A stretch of DNA of 44,211 nt from Clostridia bacterium (GTDB lineage: Bacteria > Bacillota > Clostridia > UBA1212 > UBA1255). Each line of letters starts with the position of its first letter. Position 1 is the stretch's first letter. The notes beneath the pieces are model-generated. The model had not been told where the DNA came from and ran no database searches. It saw nothing but the letters and a program-made list of their open reading frames with translations. A program made the position numbers and the translations under genes. Positions 2,358 to 28,464 of the stretch are shown piece after piece. The stretch is from the NCBI GenBank assembly GCA_017963755.1, contig JAGCTF010000085.1:1-44211 (forward strand), in the 5' to 3' direction.

Positions 2358-2401
2358 ATATCCAAGCGATACTGGCCGCCCGGAAGCACGCCCACGTTTA
2401 C

Positions 2402-2430
2402 TTGACAGTCTCCAGATAATATGTTATGTT
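2402..2430 (+). promoter_or_regulatory. Promoter of the RHS gene
   Basis: TTGACA (2402-2407), 17-base spacer, TATGTT (2425-2430). The stretch 2414-2463, covering the spacer, -10 and early leader, is repeated at 9995-10044 with 45 of 50 matches. Confidence 0.7.
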
Positions 2431-2463
2431 TGCAATCGTAAATTTAGACAAAGTAAGGCATAT
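2414..2463 (+). repeat. Promoter/leader repeat, copy 1
   Basis: 50 bases that match 9995-10044 at 45 positions, including an uninterrupted 20-base block and an 11-base block. It covers the -10 region and the start of the RHS leader. Keeping leader bases downstream of the -10 identical suggests a regulatory site rather than only a promoter. Confidence 0.8.
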
Positions 2464-2494
2464 ATTTAGAGCAGTATTTCAGGGGGCAAGAGCT

Positions 2495-5400
2495 ATGAAC
2501 AGGTTAGAATCATTAGGCTTCATCAAATGGCGGGTCATTGCGGTTTTATTGATCATCACCCTCACTATTCAGCTGATCCCTTCCAGATTTGCAGATCTTA
2601 TACGGTCAAAAGTATGCGCTTCCGAAGAATCGGTATTTTGTGGCAACGAATATCCTGATCTTATTCCCGAGGTTAGTATTGAAGAAGATAATACTGATAT
2701 TTCTAAAGATAAAAAAGGACTTTCAGTAAACGGTGAACTCACAGATCTGAGGAGCAGACACAGTAAGACATACAGATTATCTGACGGCTCGTTTTACAGC
2801 ACTCAATTCAGCTATCCAATACATATCATCGAAGATGATCGCTGGATAGATGTGGATAATACGCTTATTTCGGATCCGGACTGCGGCAGGGTCAAAAATA
2901 CAAAAGGAGTATTCAATGTCAGTTTTCCTCAAATCATTACTCGGGATAAGGAGCAGACCGAAGAAAACAGTATAAGCGTTTCTGGTGAGCAGGGCGGCAT
3001 TTCGTATACTCTTTCTTTACCGGGGCTTACAAATGGACCTTCGTACGAATCATTCGCTGATATTATTCCGGAAACGAAGGATGAAAATACTCAAGATCTT
3101 TCAGTACTTCAGCAATTAGAATTGCTTCCAGCTCTTGAATCCGGTTTGAAATACAGCAACATCACAGATGGAATCAGCCTTGAGTACACTGTAACACCAG
3201 GCGGCATTAAAGAAAACATAATGCTCGAATCTGCGCCTTCAGTAGAATTGCTTGATCAGGGATTTCTTTATAGTTTTGATACAAAAGACCTGATTCCGGA
3301 GCTCGAAGAAAATCGAATCATATTTTTGAATGAGGATGGATATCCTGTCTGTATTTTTTCTGCTCCACTTATGTATGACAGTGCCGGAGCAGTTTCGGAT
3401 AATCTGACTCTCTCTCTTGAAGAAAAAGACGACGGCCTTTTTGAAGTCCGTCTTCTTGCCGATACAGACTGGATCATGGACAGCAAGCGTGTGTTCCCAA
3501 TCGTGATCGATCCGGAGGTAACTGTTGAAGATTCCGAAGTAATCGATTCGGCAGCTACTTTTGATTCGTCGGATAACAGTGTGGCTGCCGGTGTAGCTGT
3601 GGCCGGAGCAAATAAACATGCTGCAGTGAGGCTTAACTGGCCTGAACTGCCGCCGTTTGCTCTGCCTGTAGAAGCAAACTTTAGAGTGAATCACGGCGCA
3701 GTTAATTACAGCGACTGTTATTTGTCCGCGACTGCAGTGAATGAAAACTGGACTGTTTCCGGTCTTGCAAACGGTCTTCCGGCGCATGAACAATTTCCGT
3801 TTCAGCACTTTCATCATATGTTTTACGCTTCTTCATATTTTACACTCGACGTGACTGGGGAAGCAAAAAAGAACTACATTTATGCTCAGAACTATGGTTT
3901 TTTAATCGAAAGCTCAGGCCTGACATCACCTGCAACTCTGTTTTATGCATCAAATATTGAGGCTACTGTTCTGACACTAAGATATCTCAATTACCAGGGT
4001 CTTGAGGAACAATGGAACACACATGCCGCTTCTGTTTCGGATATGTCCGGAACAATATACGTTAAAGATGCTTTCGGCGATTTTGTATATGTTCATGACG
4101 ATCTGACTACTCCGGGAGACGTTCTTCCGCTCAGTGTTAGTCATATATTTAATTTTACTGATGGAAAAGATGAGTTCGGCTATGGCTACGGATTCAGGCT
4201 AAGCCTCTGCAGGACGCTTGAATTTAATCCGGATATCGACGGGTACATCTATACTGACGAAGACGGGACAAAGCATTATTTCCTTTATTCTTCGCAAAAT
4301 GAATATTTGCTGGAAGAAGACCATTCCGTTAAAATAAAAACAGACTCAGGGATTCCGTATATAGTCTGGCCGGATTCAAGCAGACTGACGTTCGGCGATT
4401 CACAAAATAATATTTTGTACGCCTCATCGTATACCGATTACCGGGATATACAGCAGACCTTTCAATACACGTTATTGTCCGGCAGGAAACTTATGACGAA
4501 AGCCATTGACGGCGCCGGTAATTATCTGCAGTTTACATATAATTCCTCCGGTATGCTCACCGGGATAAATGTAAACGGGAGCACAACCAGAAAGTTAACT
4601 TTTACATATGACAGCGGTAAACTGAGCCGCATTACTTATCCGGACTCATCGTACACAGAATTCTACAGTACGTCGCGAACGGTAAACGGAAAAGCGTATT
4701 ATTATCCAAAAAGAATAGTTGATCCGTCCGGTGTTATGATGCGAGTCGCCGTCAGCAGCGGCACACTGAGAGTCAGCAAAATTTATAAAAAAGCGGCAGG
4801 AAGCGGAGACAGTACGGTCGTTGACGCGGATTATGCATTATTTACATATGAACCGTCACGGACAACCGTAAAATACGGATTTGGCAGTCATGAAACAGGC
4901 TCGGAAATAATCAGCTTCGATTATTACGGCAGAGCGGTCAATGCGTTGGATGATAAAGGCAATTCTGTTATTCTTAATTATGACGATACTAATAACGTAT
5001 TTAATAATATAAACAAAGTCCATTCAGAATTGACCGCCGGTCCGAATTATCTTAAAAACTCATCGTTTGAATACGCGAGTCTGTTAAACTGGAGTTTATA
5101 CAGTGGATCGTCCTCCGCAGTAAAATCCGCAGAATACATTTTCCCGGGATTATGCTTCGGATCGAACGTTATGAAATTGACTTCAAACCAGAGTTCAGGC
5201 TATACCGGATACGTCCAGAGCTTATCTTTGAGTTCGGGAACATATACTGCAAGTGTTTATTGCAATGCTTCTTCAGGCACCGGTTCCGGAGGTGCGGTTA
5301 TTGCGTTCATATACAACGATGCAAGTGGAATTACGCAAACTGTAAGCAGTATTCCTGAAAAAGGAAACGGCAGGATGCAGGTGACTTTTACTGTGCCTGC

Positions 5401-8400
5401 CGGAACGTCATCGCAAAAGCTGCTTTTGGGGACGTACAATTACACAGGAACCGTTTACTTTGATGCAGCGCAGGTAGAAACAGGCGGAAGAGCTTCGTAT
5501 TACAATGCTGTTGAAAACGGAGGAGCGCTGTATTCCGTAAGCGGCAATTGGAGCGGAGATATCTCCATAACCACAACTGCGGGGCGAAGCGGATACGTCC
5601 TTTACCTGAGCGGGTCAACTGCTGTTAACCGTTCAGGGGAGCAGCGTATTTATATTTCCAAGACAGATAGCGCGAAACAGTATATACGGCTGTCCGGATG
5701 GTACAAAGCGCCTAACTACTATAATGTCAGAAACGCTAATATTCAGGTCTCGTTTTACAATTCCTCCGGAAGTATTATAAGCGGCAAAACTAAAACAGTT
5801 TATCCGGACAATAATCTGACAGACTGGCAGTATCTTTCAGAATCGTTTTCTGTCAATTTCCCATATTCATATGTAAAAATTACGCTTAATAATTATGGGC
5901 CGGGATATGTTTATTTCGATGACGTGTCATTAATCGCCGAAACGTCATACGAAGATTTTGATATTGACGCCGAATATACATATAACCAGTTCGGATGGGT
6001 CGAAACAGAGACTGCCGCCGACAGATCGGTGACAGATCATACATATTATACCGACTCTGCATCTTCGCTTTTCGGCCGGATAAGAGAAGAACTTACTGCA
6101 GATAAATACGGAAATGAAACTTTTACGGAATATATATACTCGTCATATTATAACGAAGTAACGGATCTGCAATACGTTACATCTGTATATACTCCTTCTG
6201 ACGATGATCTTGAACCGGTTACGACGGTCACGGAGTATCAGTACGGGAATGAAAATACTGATTCGGCGAAATACTGTGGTCATCCGACGCTGATTTTTAC
6301 CAAAGTCAGAGAAGGAAACGGCAATTACAGCGTCACGGAGTACAGTACAAAGAATTACAGATCGGATATGCTGCTTTCCTCAGAAACAGATCTTTTCGGA
6401 ACGGTGACGTCGTATTCCTACAATTCCTACGGCGAACTTACGTCAGTTACACAGAATGGCAGTCCCACGACGTATACGTATGATTCTATGGGACGCGTTA
6501 CGGGAACATCGGGTAAGGCGAGAGTCGGGACAACGAATAATTCTACGGTAAGTGTTTCATTTGCATACAATGCCGGCAGACTCGGCACGATTACACGGTC
6601 TAACAGCTATTACGGTTTAAATTATGACTCCCTTGGGCGTTCGCTGTCCGTGACAGTAAACCGCACGTCGGGCGGCAATACTTCATCAACAGCTATCGCA
6701 AATTACACGTACAGTTCTTCAAACGGGCTCGTTTCCAGGCTGACGTACGGAAACGGGAAATACAAAGATTATACATATAACGCGGCCGGTCAGGTAACCG
6801 CGATCGATTATTCCGGCACTTCCGGTACTGACTATACAAACACATATTCCAATGCCGGCGATGCAATAACAAGGTATAACTCTTTGGAAAATATAACAAA
6901 GAGTTATTCATATGACAGCTCAGGCCGCCCTGTTTACACCGCCTTTTCTAACGGGAAAAGTCTTAAATACACTTATTTAGATAAAAACGATGAATCGTCC
7001 GTCACTTTCCGCGGACTCGCCGCGCAGCCGGATAAATTCAATTACAGGACGTATCCGGCTCAAAGATATACACAAACCGGCTTCAGCGGAAATGTGACCA
7101 CAGAGGCATACAGGTATTTTGATGAGTTCGGAAGACTTTCGTATACAAAAGCAGGTAATAGTGCTATATTGAAAACAGATCTTACATATTTGACGGCAGG
7201 AACTTATCTTGATCAGTCGACATTTAACTATTACAGCAAACTGACAGGCAGAGTCGGTTCTGTGAGTTTTACAAAAAAAGCCTCAAATTCAAACAGTTAT
7301 GTTTCCGTTTCCGGGCTGCCTACGCTGACTTATACTTATGATGCCAAAGGAAACATCGAAACGATATCCGAGGGCGGAGTACTGAAGGTCAAGTATTATT
7401 ACGACGCTCAGAATCAGCTCATACGCGAGGACAATAAGTATTTAAACAACGGCGATGGATACACAGTCGAGTATCGGTATAACGCAGACGGAAATATGAC
7501 TGCCAAGCTTCCTTATGCCTACACAACGGGCAGCACATTCCCGTATGAGTATAGCAATTCCATCGCTCCTTTATATATTAGTTACTCCGCAAGCAATGGC
7601 TGGCGTGACCAGATGACAAGCTATAACGGAAATACTGTAACGTACGACGGAGCGGGCAATATATTGTCATACAACAACGGCGCGTCAATGACGCTTACAT
7701 GGACTCAGGGGAACCGCCTTGCGTCTGTTAACAGAGCCGGTACAACAAGCTCATACCTATATGATGAAAACGGATACCGGACAAGAAAAACAGTTGGTTC
7801 AACGGTTTATACCTATATTTGGGACGGTGAGCGCCTGGTTTCTCAAGATACCGGTACCGCCGGAAGTGAAATTGTTTTTCTATATGATGACTCCGGCAAT
7901 ATGTTTGGTTTCAGAAGAGCCAATACAGTATATTACTACGCTAAAAATTTGCAGGGTGACGTAATCGCAATACTGAACAGTAGCATGAATGTGGTTGCGA
8001 AATATACCTACGACAGCTGGGGAAAGTTGATATCCATAGCAGACGGTAACGGCAACAATATAACCAATAGCACTTCGACCATAGGGTATATAAACCCGAT
8101 AAGGTATCGCAGCTATTATTACGATAATGAGGCAGGATTGTACTACCTGAAGAGCAGATATTATGATCCGGAGATAAACAGGTTTATGAGTGCGGATTTG
8201 GTGATAGGTTCTAATTATTCAGTTATAGGATATAACATGTACATTTATTGTAGTAATAATCCTGTTAATTTTGTTGATCCCTCCGGGAATATTCCTATTG
8301 GCTTAATAATTGCAGCACTTTTTCTCTTCACTCCCGTTGGCGGCACAGCACTACAGATAATAGCATCTGCCGTTTCATATTTAGGAATGTTAGTTGTGTC

Positions 8401-8875
8401 AGTATTTGACAAAGAGGTTAGAGATGATTTAAAATCCATCAAATATAACCCTTTTAATGTCAAAGAAAACAAAGTGTTGTCTTCCCAAAAAGTGTCTTTC
8501 TACAAAGGCGTTCCTGTGTTTAGAACAAATGGAAAAAGATCTGGCACATTTGGCGGCATTTTTTTAAAGAGAGGTGAAACAGAAACTGAACTAAAGCACG
8601 AGAGGGGTCATAGCTGGCAGTTGATGATGATGGGTATTGTTACATATGCTATAACTGTAGCAATTCCTTCGGCTGGCGTTTTGGGTGGATATGATGGAAG
8701 ACCCGACTTAGGAAGGGAGGCATATTATTATGCGCCTTGGGAGACTATGGCTGATATTTTAGGAGGGACGTCTCATGGACAATCAGATAAATATATCACG
8801 GATGCATGGATTTATTATATTACAGGACATTTGATTATCCCAGCTTTCTTTTGGTGGGGAGACGATCCAAAGTAA
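2495..8875 (+). CDS. RHS/YD-repeat surface protein with metalloprotease-like C-terminal tip
   Basis: A 2126-residue secreted or membrane-anchored RHS protein of the WapA type. I chose the ATG at 2495 because AGGGGG lies 8 bases upstream; the reading frame is open from 2426. An N-terminal hydrophobic segment (about 12-30) is the signal or anchor. Then come a DNRLRE-like N-terminal part, two CBM-like beta domains (each ending near VYFDD; about 848-1000 and 1006-1149), tandem YD repeats (about 670-835 and 1160-1850) and the RHS core SRYYDPEINRFMSADL (about 1886-1901). After NPVNFVDPSGN (about 1922-1932) the sequence turns AT-rich and unrelated: a hydrophobic stretch (1933-1972), then HERGH at 2035-2039 and a WETMAD motif (Glu 2083), a plausible zincin site. 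By analogy with WapA and Rhs toxins this tip is probably a contact-delivered toxin; the enzymatic role is inference. Confidence 0.88.
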   Translation: MNRLESLGFIKWRVIAVLLIITLTIQLIPSRFADLIRSKVCASEESVFCGNEYPDLIPEVSIEEDNTDISKDKKGLSVNGELTDLRSRHSKTYRLSDGSFYSTQFSYPIHIIEDDRWIDVDNTLISDPDCGRVKNTKGVFNVSFPQIITRDKEQTEENSISVSGEQGGISYTLSLPGLTNGPSYESFADIIPETKDENTQDLSVLQQLELLPALESGLKYSNITDGISLEYTVTPGGIKENIMLESAPSVELLDQGFLYSFDTKDLIPELEENRIIFLNEDGYPVCIFSAPLMYDSAGAVSDNLTLSLEEKDDGLFEVRLLADTDWIMDSKRVFPIVIDPEVTVEDSEVIDSAATFDSSDNSVAAGVAVAGANKHAAVRLNWPELPPFALPVEANFRVNHGAVNYSDCYLSATAVNENWTVSGLANGLPAHEQFPFQHFHHMFYASSYFTLDVTGEAKKNYIYAQNYGFLIESSGLTSPATLFYASNIEATVLTLRYLNYQGLEEQWNTHAASVSDMSGTIYVKDAFGDFVYVHDDLTTPGDVLPLSVSHIFNFTDGKDEFGYGYGFRLSLCRTLEFNPDIDGYIYTDEDGTKHYFLYSSQNEYLLEEDHSVKIKTDSGIPYIVWPDSSRLTFGDSQNNILYASSYTDYRDIQQTFQYTLLSGRKLMTKAIDGAGNYLQFTYNSSGMLTGINVNGSTTRKLTFTYDSGKLSRITYPDSSYTEFYSTSRTVNGKAYYYPKRIVDPSGVMMRVAVSSGTLRVSKIYKKAAGSGDSTVVDADYALFTYEPSRTTVKYGFGSHETGSEIISFDYYGRAVNALDDKGNSVILNYDDTNNVFNNINKVHSELTAGPNYLKNSSFEYASLLNWSLYSGSSSAVKSAEYIFPGLCFGSNVMKLTSNQSSGYTGYVQSLSLSSGTYTASVYCNASSGTGSGGAVIAFIYNDASGITQTVSSIPEKGNGRMQVTFTVPAGTSSQKLLLGTYNYTGTVYFDAAQVETGGRASYYNAVENGGALYSVSGNWSGDISITTTAGRSGYVLYLSGSTAVNRSGEQRIYISKTDSAKQYIRLSGWYKAPNYYNVRNANIQVSFYNSSGSIISGKTKTVYPDNNLTDWQYLSESFSVNFPYSYVKITLNNYGPGYVYFDDVSLIAETSYEDFDIDAEYTYNQFGWVETETAADRSVTDHTYYTDSASSLFGRIREELTADKYGNETFTEYIYSSYYNEVTDLQYVTSVYTPSDDDLEPVTTVTEYQYGNENTDSAKYCGHPTLIFTKVREGNGNYSVTEYSTKNYRSDMLLSSETDLFGTVTSYSYNSYGELTSVTQNGSPTTYTYDSMGRVTGTSGKARVGTTNNSTVSVSFAYNAGRLGTITRSNSYYGLNYDSLGRSLSVTVNRTSGGNTSSTAIANYTYSSSNGLVSRLTYGNGKYKDYTYNAAGQVTAIDYSGTSGTDYTNTYSNAGDAITRYNSLENITKSYSYDSSGRPVYTAFSNGKSLKYTYLDKNDESSVTFRGLAAQPDKFNYRTYPAQRYTQTGFSGNVTTEAYRYFDEFGRLSYTKAGNSAILKTDLTYLTAGTYLDQSTFNYYSKLTGRVGSVSFTKKASNSNSYVSVSGLPTLTYTYDAKGNIETISEGGVLKVKYYYDAQNQLIREDNKYLNNGDGYTVEYRYNADGNMTAKLPYAYTTGSTFPYEYSNSIAPLYISYSASNGWRDQMTSYNGNTVTYDGAGNILSYNNGASMTLTWTQGNRLASVNRAGTTSSYLYDENGYRTRKTVGSTVYTYIWDGERLVSQDTGTAGSEIVFLYDDSGNMFGFRRANTVYYYAKNLQGDVIAILNSSMNVVAKYTYDSWGKLISIADGNGNNITNSTSTIGYINPIRYRSYYYDNEAGLYYLKSRYYDPEINRFMSADLVIGSNYSVIGYNMYIYCSNNPVNFVDPSGNIPIGLIIAALFLFTPVGGTALQIIASAVSYLGMLVVSVFDKEVRDDLKSIKYNPFNVKENKVLSSQKVSFYKGVPVFRTNGKRSGTFGGIFLKRGETETELKHERGHSWQLMMMGIVTYAITVAIPSAGVLGGYDGRPDLGREAYYYAPWETMADILGGTSHGQSDKYITDAWIYYITGHLIIPAFFWWGDDPK

Positions 8876-8894
8876 TATTGACAAGGAGGCAGTT

Positions 8895-9470
8895 ATGAAA
8901 AGAAAGTTTATTCCCCTTTTTAGTATAGTTATACTATGTTTTATTTTGGCATCCTGCTGTTTTGTAGCGTGGGACCCGGGTAAGTTTAGGATATCTGACG
9001 AACTAGTTTCGAATGATATTAAGGAAATTAATTACATAATTCTTAATACAAATGTTCCTGTGCTCAAATATCCGAGGGAAATAAATCAACCTGAAGCAGA
9101 TATCGATCTCGAAAGTATAGAAGTAATAACTACACTTGATGGCGAAAGAATAACAACGTTTTTTACAGAATTATCAGAACTTTCATTTTGGGTGGCATAT
9201 CCGTTTAACGTTAGAAAATATCCAGAAACTCCATTTGGGCAAGGCGCTCAGATAAAACTCACAGATGGCTCTTTTTATTTAATAACTTATTATAATGATA
9301 TGAATAATACCAAAGGAGGATATACCGGCAGAATCGATTTATATGATAAAAACGGAGGGCATTTGAGATGTTGCTCAAATTTTAATTATGCTTACGACTT
9401 TGAAGCTTTAATGTTAAAATATTTTGATAATTATATAGCTATCCTTCCAGAATTGCCTACGGTGAAGTGA
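8895..9470 (+). CDS. Small lipoprotein, candidate immunity protein
   Basis: 191 residues with a classic lipoprotein signal: basic start, hydrophobic core, lipobox LASC with Cys near residue 21. It would be anchored on the outer face of the membrane. The start has AAGGAGG 5 bases upstream and lies only 19 bases after the RHS stop, so the two are co-transcribed. I recognise no family in the body. It shares the AT-rich composition of the RHS tip. In polymorphic toxin loci the gene directly after the toxin normally encodes the immunity protein; a surface lipoprotein would fit a toxin acting outside or at the membrane, but this is inferred from position only. Confidence 0.75.
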   Translation: MKRKFIPLFSIVILCFILASCCFVAWDPGKFRISDELVSNDIKEINYIILNTNVPVLKYPREINQPEADIDLESIEVITTLDGERITTFFTELSELSFWVAYPFNVRKYPETPFGQGAQIKLTDGSFYLITYYNDMNNTKGGYTGRIDLYDKNGGHLRCCSNFNYAYDFEALMLKYFDNYIAILPELPTVK

Positions 9471-9638
9471 AAAGTTAAAATCTACTCTCGGATTCTGCAA
9501 AAAAGAAGACTTTACTCTTACACTTTTGCAAGAAAAATTTAGTTTTTCTTATCACTTTTAGCAGAATTTGCAGGCGTTGTAAAGGCATCGGCTTCGCCTC
9601 GTTTGAAACGGCCTTGACACCCCCTGCAAGGAAGATGC
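9471..9638. other. Gap after the RHS operon
   Basis: No gene. An AT-only hairpin (AAGAAAAA / TTTTTCTT, 9530-9550) might act as a weak terminator for the RHS operon. A TTGACA near 9614 has a TATTAT only at 19-base spacing, so I do not call a promoter. Confidence 0.35.
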
Positions 9639-9885
9639 TATTATTCAGATTCACTCAGATCCATTCCCGGAAGAAGCCTTCTGAAAATATGCAGTCAATA
9701 AAGTTTGGCGCACCGGAATATTGAGATGCAGCACTGGATTCTTGATGTTCAATTGAAGGAAGATAGATAGAGATATTTCGAGAAAAGATAATGCAGTTAA
9801 AAACAACTCGATTATTAAAAGATTTGGCATGCACGTTAAGAATAACTGCAAATTCAAAGAGTACAGGCTTTCAAATTTTTCATGA
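9639..9885 (+). pseudogene. ISAs1-family (H-repeat type) transposase C-terminal remnant
   Basis: In the frame from 9639 the translation runs YYSDSLRSIPGR..., then HRNIEMQHWILDVQLKEDR (9711-9767); after a frame change it continues SRKDNAVKNNSIIKRF (9778 on). This follows the order of the ISAs1 transposase C-terminus, whose usual form is YYISSL, then HWxIEN-LHWVLDV-F-ED, then SR-RK-NA-N. In-frame stops at 9699 and 9768 plus a frameshift show it is dead; the N-terminal part and both ends of the element are missing. E. coli Rhs loci carry H-repeats, which are ISAs1-family elements, at their 3' side, so the position here is notable. The call rests on motif memory, not an alignment. Confidence 0.6.
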
Positions 9886-9982
9886 ATAATCTGTTCAAGA
9901 TTGAGAATGTAACAGAAATCCTTGCTGCTCAAACCAATAATCCTTCTTCATGCCTTTGCGATAGCCCGTTTTGCTTGGCCGG

Positions 9983-10011
9983 TTTACATTGCTAAGATAA
10001 TATGTTAAAAT
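9983..10011 (+). promoter_or_regulatory. Second copy of the RHS-type promoter
   Basis: TTTACA (9983-9988), 17-base spacer, TAAAAT (10006-10011). Same architecture and mostly same sequence as the RHS promoter at 2402-2430. It would drive the membrane protein at 10145 with a leader of about 125 bases. Confidence 0.65.
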
Positions 10012-10044
10012 CGCAATCGTAAATTTAGACAAGGTAAGGCATAT
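9995..10044 (+). repeat. Promoter/leader repeat, copy 2
   Basis: Direct repeat of 2414-2463 (45 of 50 bases). The two copies bracket the RHS gene, the lipoprotein and the transposase remnant. The stretch from here to 10144 holds no other gene I can see. Confidence 0.8.
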
Positions 10045-10144
10045 GATTTAACCACTTCAGTAATAGTCAGTGCTTTATCCTGGCTTGGTGGGTTAGTCAT
10101 GAAACAAGCAAAAAGTAATGCATGAGTTCATTTAGGAGGAAAAG

Positions 10145-10684
10145 ATGAAAAAAATGTATGCCGGAGGGTGGTTCGAGATAGTACTGATTTTTGGTCCTTT
10201 TTTCGGTATATTTCTCTATGTATTGCCAGGGGTTATTCTGTTCTGTAATTATGGGTTCAACGAAGCAGTATTGATTATCGCAATTTGTGTTTTTCTTATG
10301 TTTTGCGTTTTTGGTATTCTTATATGGCACGGCAGAATTCTGTTTCTTACGTGGATTACTTTCCTTGATGAGTATTTGATCATCAAAACACTTTTTCGGA
10401 AAGCAGTAATAATGCGTTATAATGAAATTGCTGGATGTGGGATAGGTTATTATTTTCATGGAAGAATGATCTCTGGTATTGGTATTATGCGATATTACTT
10501 TTTTTTATCGAACGGCGAATTTGACGATTCCCTTAGGAAAACAATAAACAGATGGAGGCCCAAAAAACAAAAGTACGTTAAAATCGCGTTTAGTCAGAAA
10601 AAATATGATTATATACTGACAAAATTGCCGAAAAATCTTTCAACAATTATTCGTTATGACCACGATCGATTCATTCCGAGGTAA
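10145..10684 (+). CDS. Small membrane protein with possible bacterial PH-like domain
   Basis: 179 residues, start supported by TTAGGAGG 6 bases upstream. Two hydrophobic segments lie at about 9-32 and 38-60, followed by a cytoplasmic domain whose layout (LDEYLIIKTLFRKAVIMRYNEIAG) resembles the bPH-like domains found after a pair of membrane helices in Firmicutes proteins. The gene is AT-rich like the RHS tip and unlike the flanking chromosome, and its promoter copies that of the RHS gene. It could be a second immunity or accessory gene of the island, but no function can be read from the sequence. Confidence 0.7.
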   Translation: MKKMYAGGWFEIVLIFGPFFGIFLYVLPGVILFCNYGFNEAVLIIAICVFLMFCVFGILIWHGRILFLTWITFLDEYLIIKTLFRKAVIMRYNEIAGCGIGYYFHGRMISGIGIMRYYFFLSNGEFDDSLRKTINRWRPKKQKYVKIAFSQKKYDYILTKLPKNLSTIIRYDHDRFIPR

Positions 10685-10818
10685 TTATTTTACGCAGATT
10701 ATAAGCTTGGACCATGGAAGGAAAAGTAGACTGGTACGGAAAAGTATTAGTGGGTAATGCGCAGGTACGATATCCGTTGGCACACGCTTTTCACCAAGGT
10801 AAATCTACCGTCAGGTCC
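10685..10818. other. Gap between island membrane gene and tRNA fragment
   Basis: No gene. A 36-codon open frame at 10714-10824 lacks a ribosome binding site. CACACG at 10781-10786 can pair with CGTGTG at 10818-10823, so part of the stretch may fold together with the tRNA-like end. Confidence 0.3.
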
Positions 10819-10861
10819 GTGTGAGAGTTCTCTCATACAGGTTCAAGTCCTGCTATCCGCA
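10819..10861 (+). pseudogene. tRNA 3' fragment (variable arm, T arm, 3' acceptor strand)
   Basis: A long variable-arm-like hairpin (GTGTGAGA 10819-10826 / TCTCATAC 10831-10838) leads into a T arm with CAGG, loop TTCAAGT and CCTG (10838-10852), then an acceptor 3' strand TATCCGC and discriminator A. No matching 5' strand GCGGATA or anticodon arm is present upstream. A long variable arm points to a Leu, Ser or Tyr tRNA, most likely Leu. A stranded tRNA 3' end followed by its terminator is what an integrase leaves at one border of an island. Confidence 0.5.
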
Positions 10862-10871
10862 CTATAGAATG

Positions 10872-10905
10872 GCCCCGAGATTTACTTCCCGGGGCTGTTT
10901 TCTTT
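10872..10905 (+). terminator. Rho-independent terminator after the tRNA fragment
   Basis: GCCCCG (10872-10877) pairs with CGGGGC (10890-10895) around a 12-base loop, followed by TGTTTTCTTT. The position just after a tRNA 3' end suggests it ended the original tRNA transcript. Confidence 0.8.
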
Positions 10906-11029
10906 AGTGGGTCCGGGCTTCAGCCCGCATCTTTAGCCAAAGGTTTGGCGCCTAGGCGGCAAGACGAAGGCGATGCTCGCTTTCTTTCACCGAAATATTG
11001 GCCGGTTTACATAGTGGCCGGAGCAATGC
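10906..11029. other. Gap before the phosphatase promoter
   Basis: No gene seen. A small GGGCTTCAGCCC hairpin lies near 10915-10930. TTGGCCGGTTTACAT at 10999-11013 repeats exactly the stretch upstream of the second RHS-type promoter (about 9975-9989), but here it is not placed to act as a -35 for a good -10. Confidence 0.4.
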
Positions 11030-11058
11030 TTGAAAAATCGCGCTGTTTTTGGTATATT
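11030..11058 (+). promoter_or_regulatory. Promoter of the metallophosphoesterase gene
   Basis: TTGAAA (11030-11035), 17-base spacer, TATATT (11053-11058). It overlaps the first codons of the longer open frame, which argues for the downstream start at 11114. Confidence 0.7.
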
Positions 11059-11113
11059 CTTTCCGCTCCCGTTAAAAAGAGCAGAAGCACACAGGAGCCC
11101 GGAGGTACGCGGC

Positions 11114-12535
11114 ATGGAACACAGCAACAAAAAACACGCCATATTACTTATAATATTGACAGCGATAGCGGTGCTGACCGTTGTCCTCGTACTCGTTATA
11201 ACGAATATCGGACGCGGCAGGAACAGAGCAGGAACCAAACTGCTGAACATTGCCGTCACTTTCGGAGACGATCCGTGCACGCAGAAAAATTTTTCGTGGT
11301 ATACCGAGGACGATTCTCAAAATGCCGTGATCCAGTATTATCCCGCGTCTGAATCCGATAAGGTCGGGGCTAAATTTGATACATCAAGAGCGGTCACGGC
11401 CGAAGGCTTTACCGAAAGGCTCGATACCTATATTCCGAAAGCAGGGGAGGAGTATTCCGCCTCAGCGGCACTCGAACCGAAATCATACACGCGCCACGCG
11501 GTTTTTGTGACAGGGCTTGAACCGGGCATGCGATATATGTACCGGATCGGAGACGGTAAAAACTGGTCTGACACTGCCGAATTCACTACCGCGCCTGACA
11601 GCTCCGTTTCTGCCGGGAACGGCTTTTCGTTCCTTATTGTTTCAGATATGCAGGGATATATCTACAGTGATTATGAACTCTGGGGTAAAGTCTTCGGTAA
11701 AGCCATGGACAAGTGCGGTTCTCCTGCGTTTATGGTCAATCTCGGCGATTTTGTAGAACGCCAGGACAATGCGCTCGTCTGGAATTATTACTTCGGCCTT
11801 GCCGACGGCCTTGAAAACGTGACCACAGTTCCTGTCGCGGGTAATAAAGAGGATAAAATGTTCCTCAAGTATTTCCTGCTGGGCTCCCAGGACGGTATCA
11901 CAGGCCTGAACGGCTACTATTCTTTCGATTATATGAACGTCCATTTCACCGTGCTCAATACGGGAGACGGTACGAAAGACCTTTCAAAATCGCAGGTAAA
12001 ATGGCTGAAAAATGATCTTTCTTCGGATAAAGCTAAAAATGCCGCTTTCCGCGTCGTACTGGTCCACAAAGCTCCGTATTCCGACAGAAACCATGCGGAT
12101 GATTCCGAGATCGTTAAGATACGCCAGCAGCTCCTGCCGTTGTTCGATGAATACGGTGCGGACGTGGTGCTTGAAGGGCACGATCACTATTACTTCCGCT
12201 CCGAACCGGTCGTGAGCGACGGAACTGTTAAAGCGGAATACGAAAGTTCGAGCGTCAGCGCAGGCGGAGAAAAGATCGACGTATTCAAGCTGCAAAAAAG
12301 CAGTACGGGCTCCTCAGGCGTATTCTATTTTATGCCGGGAGCGTCAGGAGTGAGACAGCACAGCAAGGAATTCAGAGACATGCCCGAGATACTGGCGGCG
12401 CGGTCAATAATTCTTAACGATCCTACTTTCTGCGTGTGCGACGTGACGGAAGATCATATCTACTTCCGTACGTACGAAGTTGACCGCTACAAGCTGACGG
12501 CAACTCCGGTAGAATGCTGGGGGATTCAGAAATAA
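11114..12535 (+). CDS. Membrane-anchored purple-acid-phosphatase-like metallophosphoesterase
   Basis: 473 residues. Start chosen at 11114: GGAGGT lies 7 bases upstream and the promoter is at 11030. An N-terminal helix (9-31) anchors it with the enzyme outside the cell. Residues about 41-160 form a fibronectin-like N-domain as in purple acid phosphatases, followed by the metallophosphoesterase core: SDMQG (D178), NLGDFVE (D212), AGNKED (N244), VLVHKAPY (H318) and EGHDHYY (H356, H358). The usual GNH motif reads GNK here, so the conserved His is Lys at 245. Likely releases phosphate from extracellular phosphoesters; the substrate is unknown. It stands alone, with its own promoter. Confidence 0.9.
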   Translation: MEHSNKKHAILLIILTAIAVLTVVLVLVITNIGRGRNRAGTKLLNIAVTFGDDPCTQKNFSWYTEDDSQNAVIQYYPASESDKVGAKFDTSRAVTAEGFTERLDTYIPKAGEEYSASAALEPKSYTRHAVFVTGLEPGMRYMYRIGDGKNWSDTAEFTTAPDSSVSAGNGFSFLIVSDMQGYIYSDYELWGKVFGKAMDKCGSPAFMVNLGDFVERQDNALVWNYYFGLADGLENVTTVPVAGNKEDKMFLKYFLLGSQDGITGLNGYYSFDYMNVHFTVLNTGDGTKDLSKSQVKWLKNDLSSDKAKNAAFRVVLVHKAPYSDRNHADDSEIVKIRQQLLPLFDEYGADVVLEGHDHYYFRSEPVVSDGTVKAEYESSSVSAGGEKIDVFKLQKSSTGSSGVFYFMPGASGVRQHSKEFRDMPEILAARSIILNDPTFCVCDVTEDHIYFRTYEVDRYKLTATPVECWGIQK

Positions 12536-28356: not shown

Positions 28357-28360
28357 TGAA

Positions 28361-28431
28361 CTGCGGAACTAGGATTCGAACCCAGACAAAATGAGTCAGA
28401 GTCATTCGTGCTGCCATTACACAATTCCGCA
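28361..28431 (-). tRNA. tRNA-Gln (anticodon CUG)
   Basis: On the minus strand the acceptor stem TGCGGAA/TTCCGCA pairs fully, the D arm has TGTAATGGCA, the anticodon stem AATGA/TCATT holds loop CTCTGAC (anticodon CTG), and the T arm CTGGG-TTCGAAT-CCTAG is normal. 71 bases with discriminator G; the CCA end is not encoded. The promoter is at 28465-28493. Confidence 0.95.
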
Positions 28432-28464
28432 ATCTGACACCGGCTTTCAAAACCGGCAAGCCGT

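Follow-up and report, generated by a model that had tools for sequence, protein, structure and literature searches.

A putative recombination site built on the 3' part of tRNA-Leu(CAG) marks the edge of an Rhs island and recurs among gene cassettes of Clostridia

We analyse a tRNA fragment at the edge of an Rhs island in a Clostridia bacterium (assembly GCA_017963755.1, contig JAGCTF010000085.1, positions 1 to 44,211, the whole of which we call the window). The fragment, at 10811-10861, is the 3' part of a tRNA-Leu(CAG), which extends from its anticodon loop as far as the discriminator base; the locus has no 5' half. The best explanation we have is that it belongs to an attR-type site, consisting of a box, a TCAG, the tRNA-Leu 3' part and a terminator, at the right end of a mobile Rhs cassette. 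Comparison of the window with related loci places exact joins at the TCAG in the tRNA-Leu(CAG) anticodon loop, and it documents cassettes that are present in one genome and absent from another, cassette arrays, and recombinases that lie beside a substitute tRNA. From these comparisons, we think it probable that the family consists of small cassettes without a recombinase that derive from, or are mobilised by, elements that have a large serine recombinase and use the tRNA-Leu anticodon loop as their target. The site in the window is made of the following parts.

10727-10753, plus strand: module A (TAGACTGGTACGGAAAAGTATTAGTGG), with 1 mismatch to the consensus; elsewhere it is found repeated and inverted at cassette ends.
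10790-10810, plus strand: the box, a half-site of the recombination site (H3), partly decayed as judged by its 3 mismatches to the consensus.
10811-10814, plus strand: TCAG, the crossover position; the 2-bp core is probably the TC at 10811-10812.
10811-10861, plus strand: the tRNA-Leu(CAG) 3' part, half-site H2, comprising the anticodon loop onward, the T arm and the acceptor 3' strand.
10819-10838, plus strand: the variable arm within the tRNA-Leu(CAG) 3' part.
About 10867-10905, plus strand: an intrinsic terminator (hairpin and T run), common to other copies.

The initial annotation of this DNA described an orphan tRNA 3' end with a terminator, starting at 10819 and probably from a tRNA-Leu. 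The fragment and its terminator are real and the proposed identity is right, with the correction that the copy begins eight bases further left, at 10811. An intact tRNA at 10758-10861, which would have spoken against that description, is not recovered. The only tRNA predicted by ARAGORN in the whole window is a tRNA-Gln (28360-28432), also the sole Rfam match at gathering score, and a tRNA scan of 10300-11500 at E<=10 gives zero matches. The piece thus lacks the complete cloverleaf of a functional tRNA gene, and we dropped a divergent intact tRNA as a candidate after these scans. A group I intron and a tRNA-Sec, weighed from the letters of the site, were dropped once the repeat family emerged.

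A search of the window's own genome with 10690-10910 finds 11 places including the window, the best of the others at E 1.3e-63, with copies 77-89% identical over 100-180 bp. The stretch therefore matches 10 other places in the genome and is no product of chance. A similar tRNA 3' end elsewhere, which the initial annotation had required of its reading, is present, and its single orphan becomes one of about ten dispersed attR-type sites of a cassette family. Of the two fates it offered for the 5' part, elsewhere or lost, the first finds a candidate in a 5' half cut at the anticodon on contig C150 of the same genome (L013:341, minus strand). In the alignment, a typical copy runs from the box (TTCACCAAGGTNACRCTACCA) to TCAGG and the tRNA 3' part and then to the terminator. 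Many copies are preceded by the 27-bp module A, and several have an inverted module A downstream, preceded by a promoter-like TTGACT-N17-TATCAT. Contig C243 has three copies, at 1865, 5815 and 9357, with genes for a BspA-like leucine-rich repeat (LRR) protein and an ABC transporter in between. The C82 copy has the box and no tRNA part, and the C150 copy (L013:161-245) is a nearly intact tRNA-Leu(CAG) that ARAGORN calls, but with the T loop TGGGGGT. That T loop, in place of TTCAAGT, occurs in several tRNA-Leu(CAG) copies, the intact-looking one and the att sites in L009, L014 and L012 among them; the T stem and acceptor are instead block-replaced in G023, G024, G027 and L108. More generally, the T arm or acceptor is block-replaced in many aligned copies.

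Across the order, the box pattern is found at 35 places in 11 of 31 genomes and 2 of 12 genera, and a reversed control gives 0. The contigs are, as named, mostly from metagenome-assembled genomes of rumen Clostridia. Two of the 21 pattern-matched stretches (L102 and L106) lack a box and are probable chance matches. The 34 aligned box sites include four in which the box is followed by something other than a full tRNA 3' part (L016, L053:2425, L105, L107) and four that are truncated at a contig end or by Ns (L057, L090, L098, L104). Many of the att copies sit at contig ends (own contigs C43, C99 and C150; L055, L058, L098, L104); assemblies thus probably break at the repeat, which may be more numerous than counted. 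We also considered a phage source and rejected it: the two DNA patterns have 0 exact matches in the viral contigs, which hold no relative of the large serine recombinase described below, and none appears in phages at E<=1e-60.

Around the constant TCAG, the half-site scan and a search for left-type sites together find all four combinations of half-sites, H1 being the 5' half of the tRNA, H2 its 3' half, H3 the box and H4 the inverted box. H1-H2 is the intact tRNA-Leu(CAG), called by ARAGORN in L013, L047, L048, L054 and L055. H1-H4, the attL type, occurs at 7 places in 5 of the 31 genomes (control, 0); a native promoter stands ahead of the cut 5' half in L130 and L135, and two such sites lie 129 bp apart in L136/L130. 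H3-H2 is the attR type, as in the window. H3-H4, box-TCAG-inverted box, is seen once (L139/L129). Box and inverted box are inverted repeats centred on TC, identical at 17 of 22 positions, and 0 of 200000 shuffles are as good. A whole event can be followed in L048, which has a promoter, an intact tRNA, an element-type terminator, an inverted module A and a small gene, and then module A, the box, a second 3' half and a different terminator. A coding role for the box and inverted box, suggested by changes that often fall at third codon positions and by the reading frame in L146 (below), is kept only as an aside.

Cassette mobility is well supported by comparison between genomes. In the stretch L146, an 837-bp cassette with one gene (HEAT-repeat) interrupts a protein gene just ahead of its final five codons, at a site that is not a tRNA; cassette and host share only TC. 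G025 lacks this cassette at the corresponding place before the following tRNA, and G023, G024 and G030 are too diverged at the site to judge. At L146:4470-4530, the left end of the cassette prolongs the host gene in frame and supplies a new stop codon, so that the host protein loses only its last five residues. A second case is an AbiEi/AbiEii cassette common to two genomes (L053 and L108), with 89.7% identity over 1984 bp. Its right-hand homology stops at TCAG, beyond which the flanks differ and one partner has no tRNA. An array is seen in L108, where four sites in the same orientation are separated by a lipoprotein-like open reading frame (ORF), AbiEi with AbiEii, and a DUF1016/YhcG nuclease. 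Toxin-related genes are the cargo of many cassettes. Other cargo includes YhcG with HNH (L051), DUF4160 with DUF2442 (L047), an ABC transporter with an LRR protein (own C243), and Rhs. Cargo is opposite in strand to the site in L047 and for most ORFs of L051.

For the enzyme, the candidate is a large serine recombinase (PF00239, PF07508, PF13408) in G001, a congener of the window's genome. It sits at the end of what looks like a parent element (L054), with the Resolvase, Recombinase and zinc-ribbon regions together in one protein. About 40 bp separate the end of its gene from the terminator of a full tRNA-Leu(CAG). This tRNA gene is just downstream of an H1-H4 (attL) junction, and relaxase and MobC genes follow. 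The very short core (TC in L146) and the two inverted half-sites of the putative attP (17/22) are of the kind such an enzyme would use, as far as sequence can tell. Relatives of the G001 recombinase are found in 5 of 148 genomes of the class at E<=1e-60. One 48% homologue (L150) has the same layout as G001 with a similar half-site, CTACGCCACCTCGGTGA; another (L151) starts at a contig end, just short of the expected tRNA position. A 41% homologue (L152) lies inside a tRNA-Leu(TAG) whose outer halves, when rejoined, give a tRNA-like fold with matching acceptor strands, and the element supplies another tRNA-Leu(TAG) with a different acceptor stem. This element is roughly 2.6 kb long (L152:700-3420), and the tRNA-Leu(TAG) that holds it is of another family. 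In G025, the DNA ahead of a 72% homologue contains a tRNA 3' end with its terminator, 94-95% identical to cassette ends of G027. Among the cassette-bearing genomes, PF00239 is matched at 15 places; of the 14 examined, only L054 has a box or half-site nearby, and one other, L073, keeps a tRNA 3' end. The link of this recombinase family to tRNA-Leu is good but not universal, and that from recombinase to cassettes is suggested by shared ends, not by activity.

A circle carrying attP (box-TCAG-inverted box), inserted at the TCAG of a tRNA-Leu gene, would produce a 5'half-inverted box junction at its left end and a box-3'half junction at its right end, and these predicted junctions are the ones actually found. 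In an alternative mode, the element would start with its own tRNA 3' half and terminator, leaving a complete tRNA and displacing the old 3' half to the far end. Elements ending in an inverted box would thus split the tRNA, and those ending in a 3' half would keep it whole. Repeated rounds at one site could give arrays of cassettes separated by box-3'half-terminator. The recombination would be performed by a large serine recombinase of the G001/G025 family, which targets tRNA-Leu and brings a substitute tRNA, and small cassettes without a recombinase may be moved in trans by that enzyme.

The island at whose edge the window's site lies is absent from all six congeners (G001-G006), in which argG lies close to a phosphoesterase gene; the window has the two genes 8.8 kb apart. 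Homology between window and congeners ends near 2365 and restarts near 11029. The features of the island are as follows.

2365-11028: the island (about 8.7 kb), missing in all 6 congeners; its borders are approximate, and no att site is recognised at the left one.
2426-8875, plus strand: Rhs gene, 2149 aa (PF05593, TIGR03696, TIGR01643).
8895-9470, plus strand: 191-aa ORF, lipoprotein-like by eye and possibly an immunity gene; no family match.
10145-10684, plus strand: 179-aa ORF, membrane-protein-like by eye, adjoining the att site upstream; no family match.
10906-10985, plus strand: a separate repeat of the REP (repetitive extragenic palindromic) type, also at L009:164-242 and after the C114 copy (L010).

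The tRNA piece lies at the right edge of this island, so the border proposed by the initial annotation holds, as does the AT-richness it reported (G+C 0.35-0.39 over 8001-11000, compared with 0.49 at 11001-12000). Its integration into a tRNA gene at this place does not hold. The argG-phosphoesterase gap has no counterpart of the piece in any of the 6 congeners, so the island was not inserted into a local tRNA and the piece arrived with the island. The left border is approximate because the gaps of the congeners also vary among themselves; that of G003 (contig C317, L114) has about ten similar TGTAGCCGCAAATGGCAAAAA-type repeats in tandem. A family scan of the three ORFs of the island shows no recombinase. 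Rhs genes also adjoin att sites in L052 (between two sites), L048 and L010, and less clearly in L011. REP-like repeats (AGTGGGTCCGGGCTTC... or, in other copies, CAGCTGCCTTCCCTTCGCAGAGCCGG...) tend to come after the att terminator.

Several observations weigh against the mechanism proposed above. The window island has an attR-type site, and neither an attL nor another end was found at its left border, so that the insertion route of the window copy is conjectural. PF00239 is unmatched in the own genome (G000, 94% complete). There are many more box sites than attL sites (35 places as against 7). In L047, L048 and L055, the intact tRNA stands behind its native promoter and the inverted box is absent, which calls for either repair after the event or another mode of integration. 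On its left side the AbiE cassette has no sharp edge, since L108 lacks the promoter and inverted module A that L053 has. Finally, two homologues of about 30% (L153 and L154) have no tRNA within the stretch examined, and a 51% homologue on a Subdoligranulum record has none nearby.

Some of these observations would be expected if there is now no dedicated recombinase, and old att remnants spread or shuffle genes by homologous recombination between repeats of about 120 bp, or travel with copied islands. The similarity of the repeats, the missing PF00239 match, the excess of box sites and the decay of boxes, the window's included, all fit this account. It does not explain why AbiE homology ends at TCAG with no tRNA beyond in one partner, how the L146 cassette entered at a 2-bp match in a target without such a repeat, or why all four junction types are present, and we regard it as unlikely, though to be taken seriously.

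A tyrosine recombinase, for example the single Xer-type protein or one outside the sample, is a more doubtful agent. Islands in tRNA genes with a 3' identity block are its usual products, a block that starts at the anticodon loop is typical of tyrosine integrases, and G000, G001 and G002 each have a core-type PF00589 gene. Such enzymes are few here, with one PF00589 match each in G001 and G002, in a core-type setting. Tyrosine integrases use an overlap of 6-8 bp, and the L146 join shares only 2 bp. PF00589 is found at 13 places in 8 genomes, and none of the 12 loci examined has a half-site nearby; it is serine, not tyrosine, recombinases that adjoin the split tRNA-Leu genes.

Very improbably, the unit is a tRNA-derived interspersed repeat kept as a terminator or small RNA, with incidental cargo. 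The terminator and the variable-arm hairpin are conserved through paired changes, and the fold of 10750-10905 is stable (1 of 200 shuffles as stable, z -3.48), but the terminators differ at L047, L048, L049 and L051 while box and TCAG persist, and the cassette joins are exact. Least probable of all is that a single island entered a tRNA-Leu gene at this very place and lost the 5' part, which the tRNA-Leu 3' part at the island edge would suggest and which the absence of a tRNA match from the same gap in 6 of 6 congeners, together with at least ten similar pieces in the genome, contradicts.

We return to cassettes mobilised by serine recombinases and compare them with known systems. Serine-recombinase elements and integrative and mobilizable elements (IMEs) likewise have a recombinase at one end, a short core and an attP of inverted half-sites (PMC5704250, PMC5357655, PMC10083194, the last of which treats serine recombinases and core dinucleotides). 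The relaxase and MobC genes in G001 add to the likeness with IMEs. In contrast, the target here is the tRNA-Leu anticodon loop and a complete substitute tRNA is supplied; streptococcal serine-integrase IMEs lie mostly inside protein genes, which they disrupt (PMC5357655), and the tRNA attB sites treated in PMC10654092 belong to tyrosine integrases. Cis-mobilizable elements (CIMEs) and tandem accretion (PMC5704250) are similar in that elements without an integrase retain their att sites and accumulate at a single site, whereas the units here often have one to three genes, are spread over about ten places in a genome and have a uniform box-3'half-terminator end in common. The SCC and ECC cassette chromosomes with Ccr also use a serine recombinase, enter a gene at its 3' end and have several att sites per genome, but the gene is rlmH, not a tRNA (PMC6222049). 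Against Ccr models, the G001 recombinase scores 84-100 bits, below cut-offs of 700-900. In additive islands with partial-tRNA repeats and in tycheposons, added genes are likewise accompanied by repeated tRNA 3' ends, which there consist of the final 20 bp of tRNA-Lys, and a tyrosine recombinase is encoded by the tycheposon (PMC10872708). Our sites join within the anticodon loop and have an inverted partner site; the tRNA 3' part is present, but no tyrosine recombinase is linked to any site examined. The combination is not described in the passages of these articles that we consulted, nor in those of PMC9897764, which treats tRNA fragments. A literature search of partial coverage (titles and beginnings of abstracts) gave no description of serine-recombinase cassettes at the tRNA-Leu anticodon, which is weak evidence of novelty.

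More tentatively, and with somewhat less confidence than not, we propose an integron-like form of gene capture run by a large serine recombinase. Its units would be small cassettes, several of which have a promoter of their own, standing in arrays and at dispersed sites and sharing an attR made of a 21-bp box and the tRNA-Leu 3' half. Elements that cut into tRNA-Leu at its anticodon and give the host a replacement tRNA would mobilise these cassettes in trans. Integrons, the textbook route for collecting single genes by site-specific recombination, line up small gene cassettes that share one type of recombination site and carry toxin-antitoxin or defence-type cargo, and all of these features recur here. 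Unlike integrons, no integron integrase was found (the 12 PF00589 loci include no IntI beside an array), the site is a box plus a tRNA 3' half, and several units carry a promoter. Elements that split and replace a tRNA at its anticodon would bear on tRNA genes as integration targets and on the tRNA fragments that litter genomes. If the proposal is correct, a gene capture similar to that of integrons arose on a second chemistry, that of a serine recombinase, in Clostridia of the rumen that are uncultured, and its cargo comprises toxin-antitoxin, defence-type and Rhs genes.
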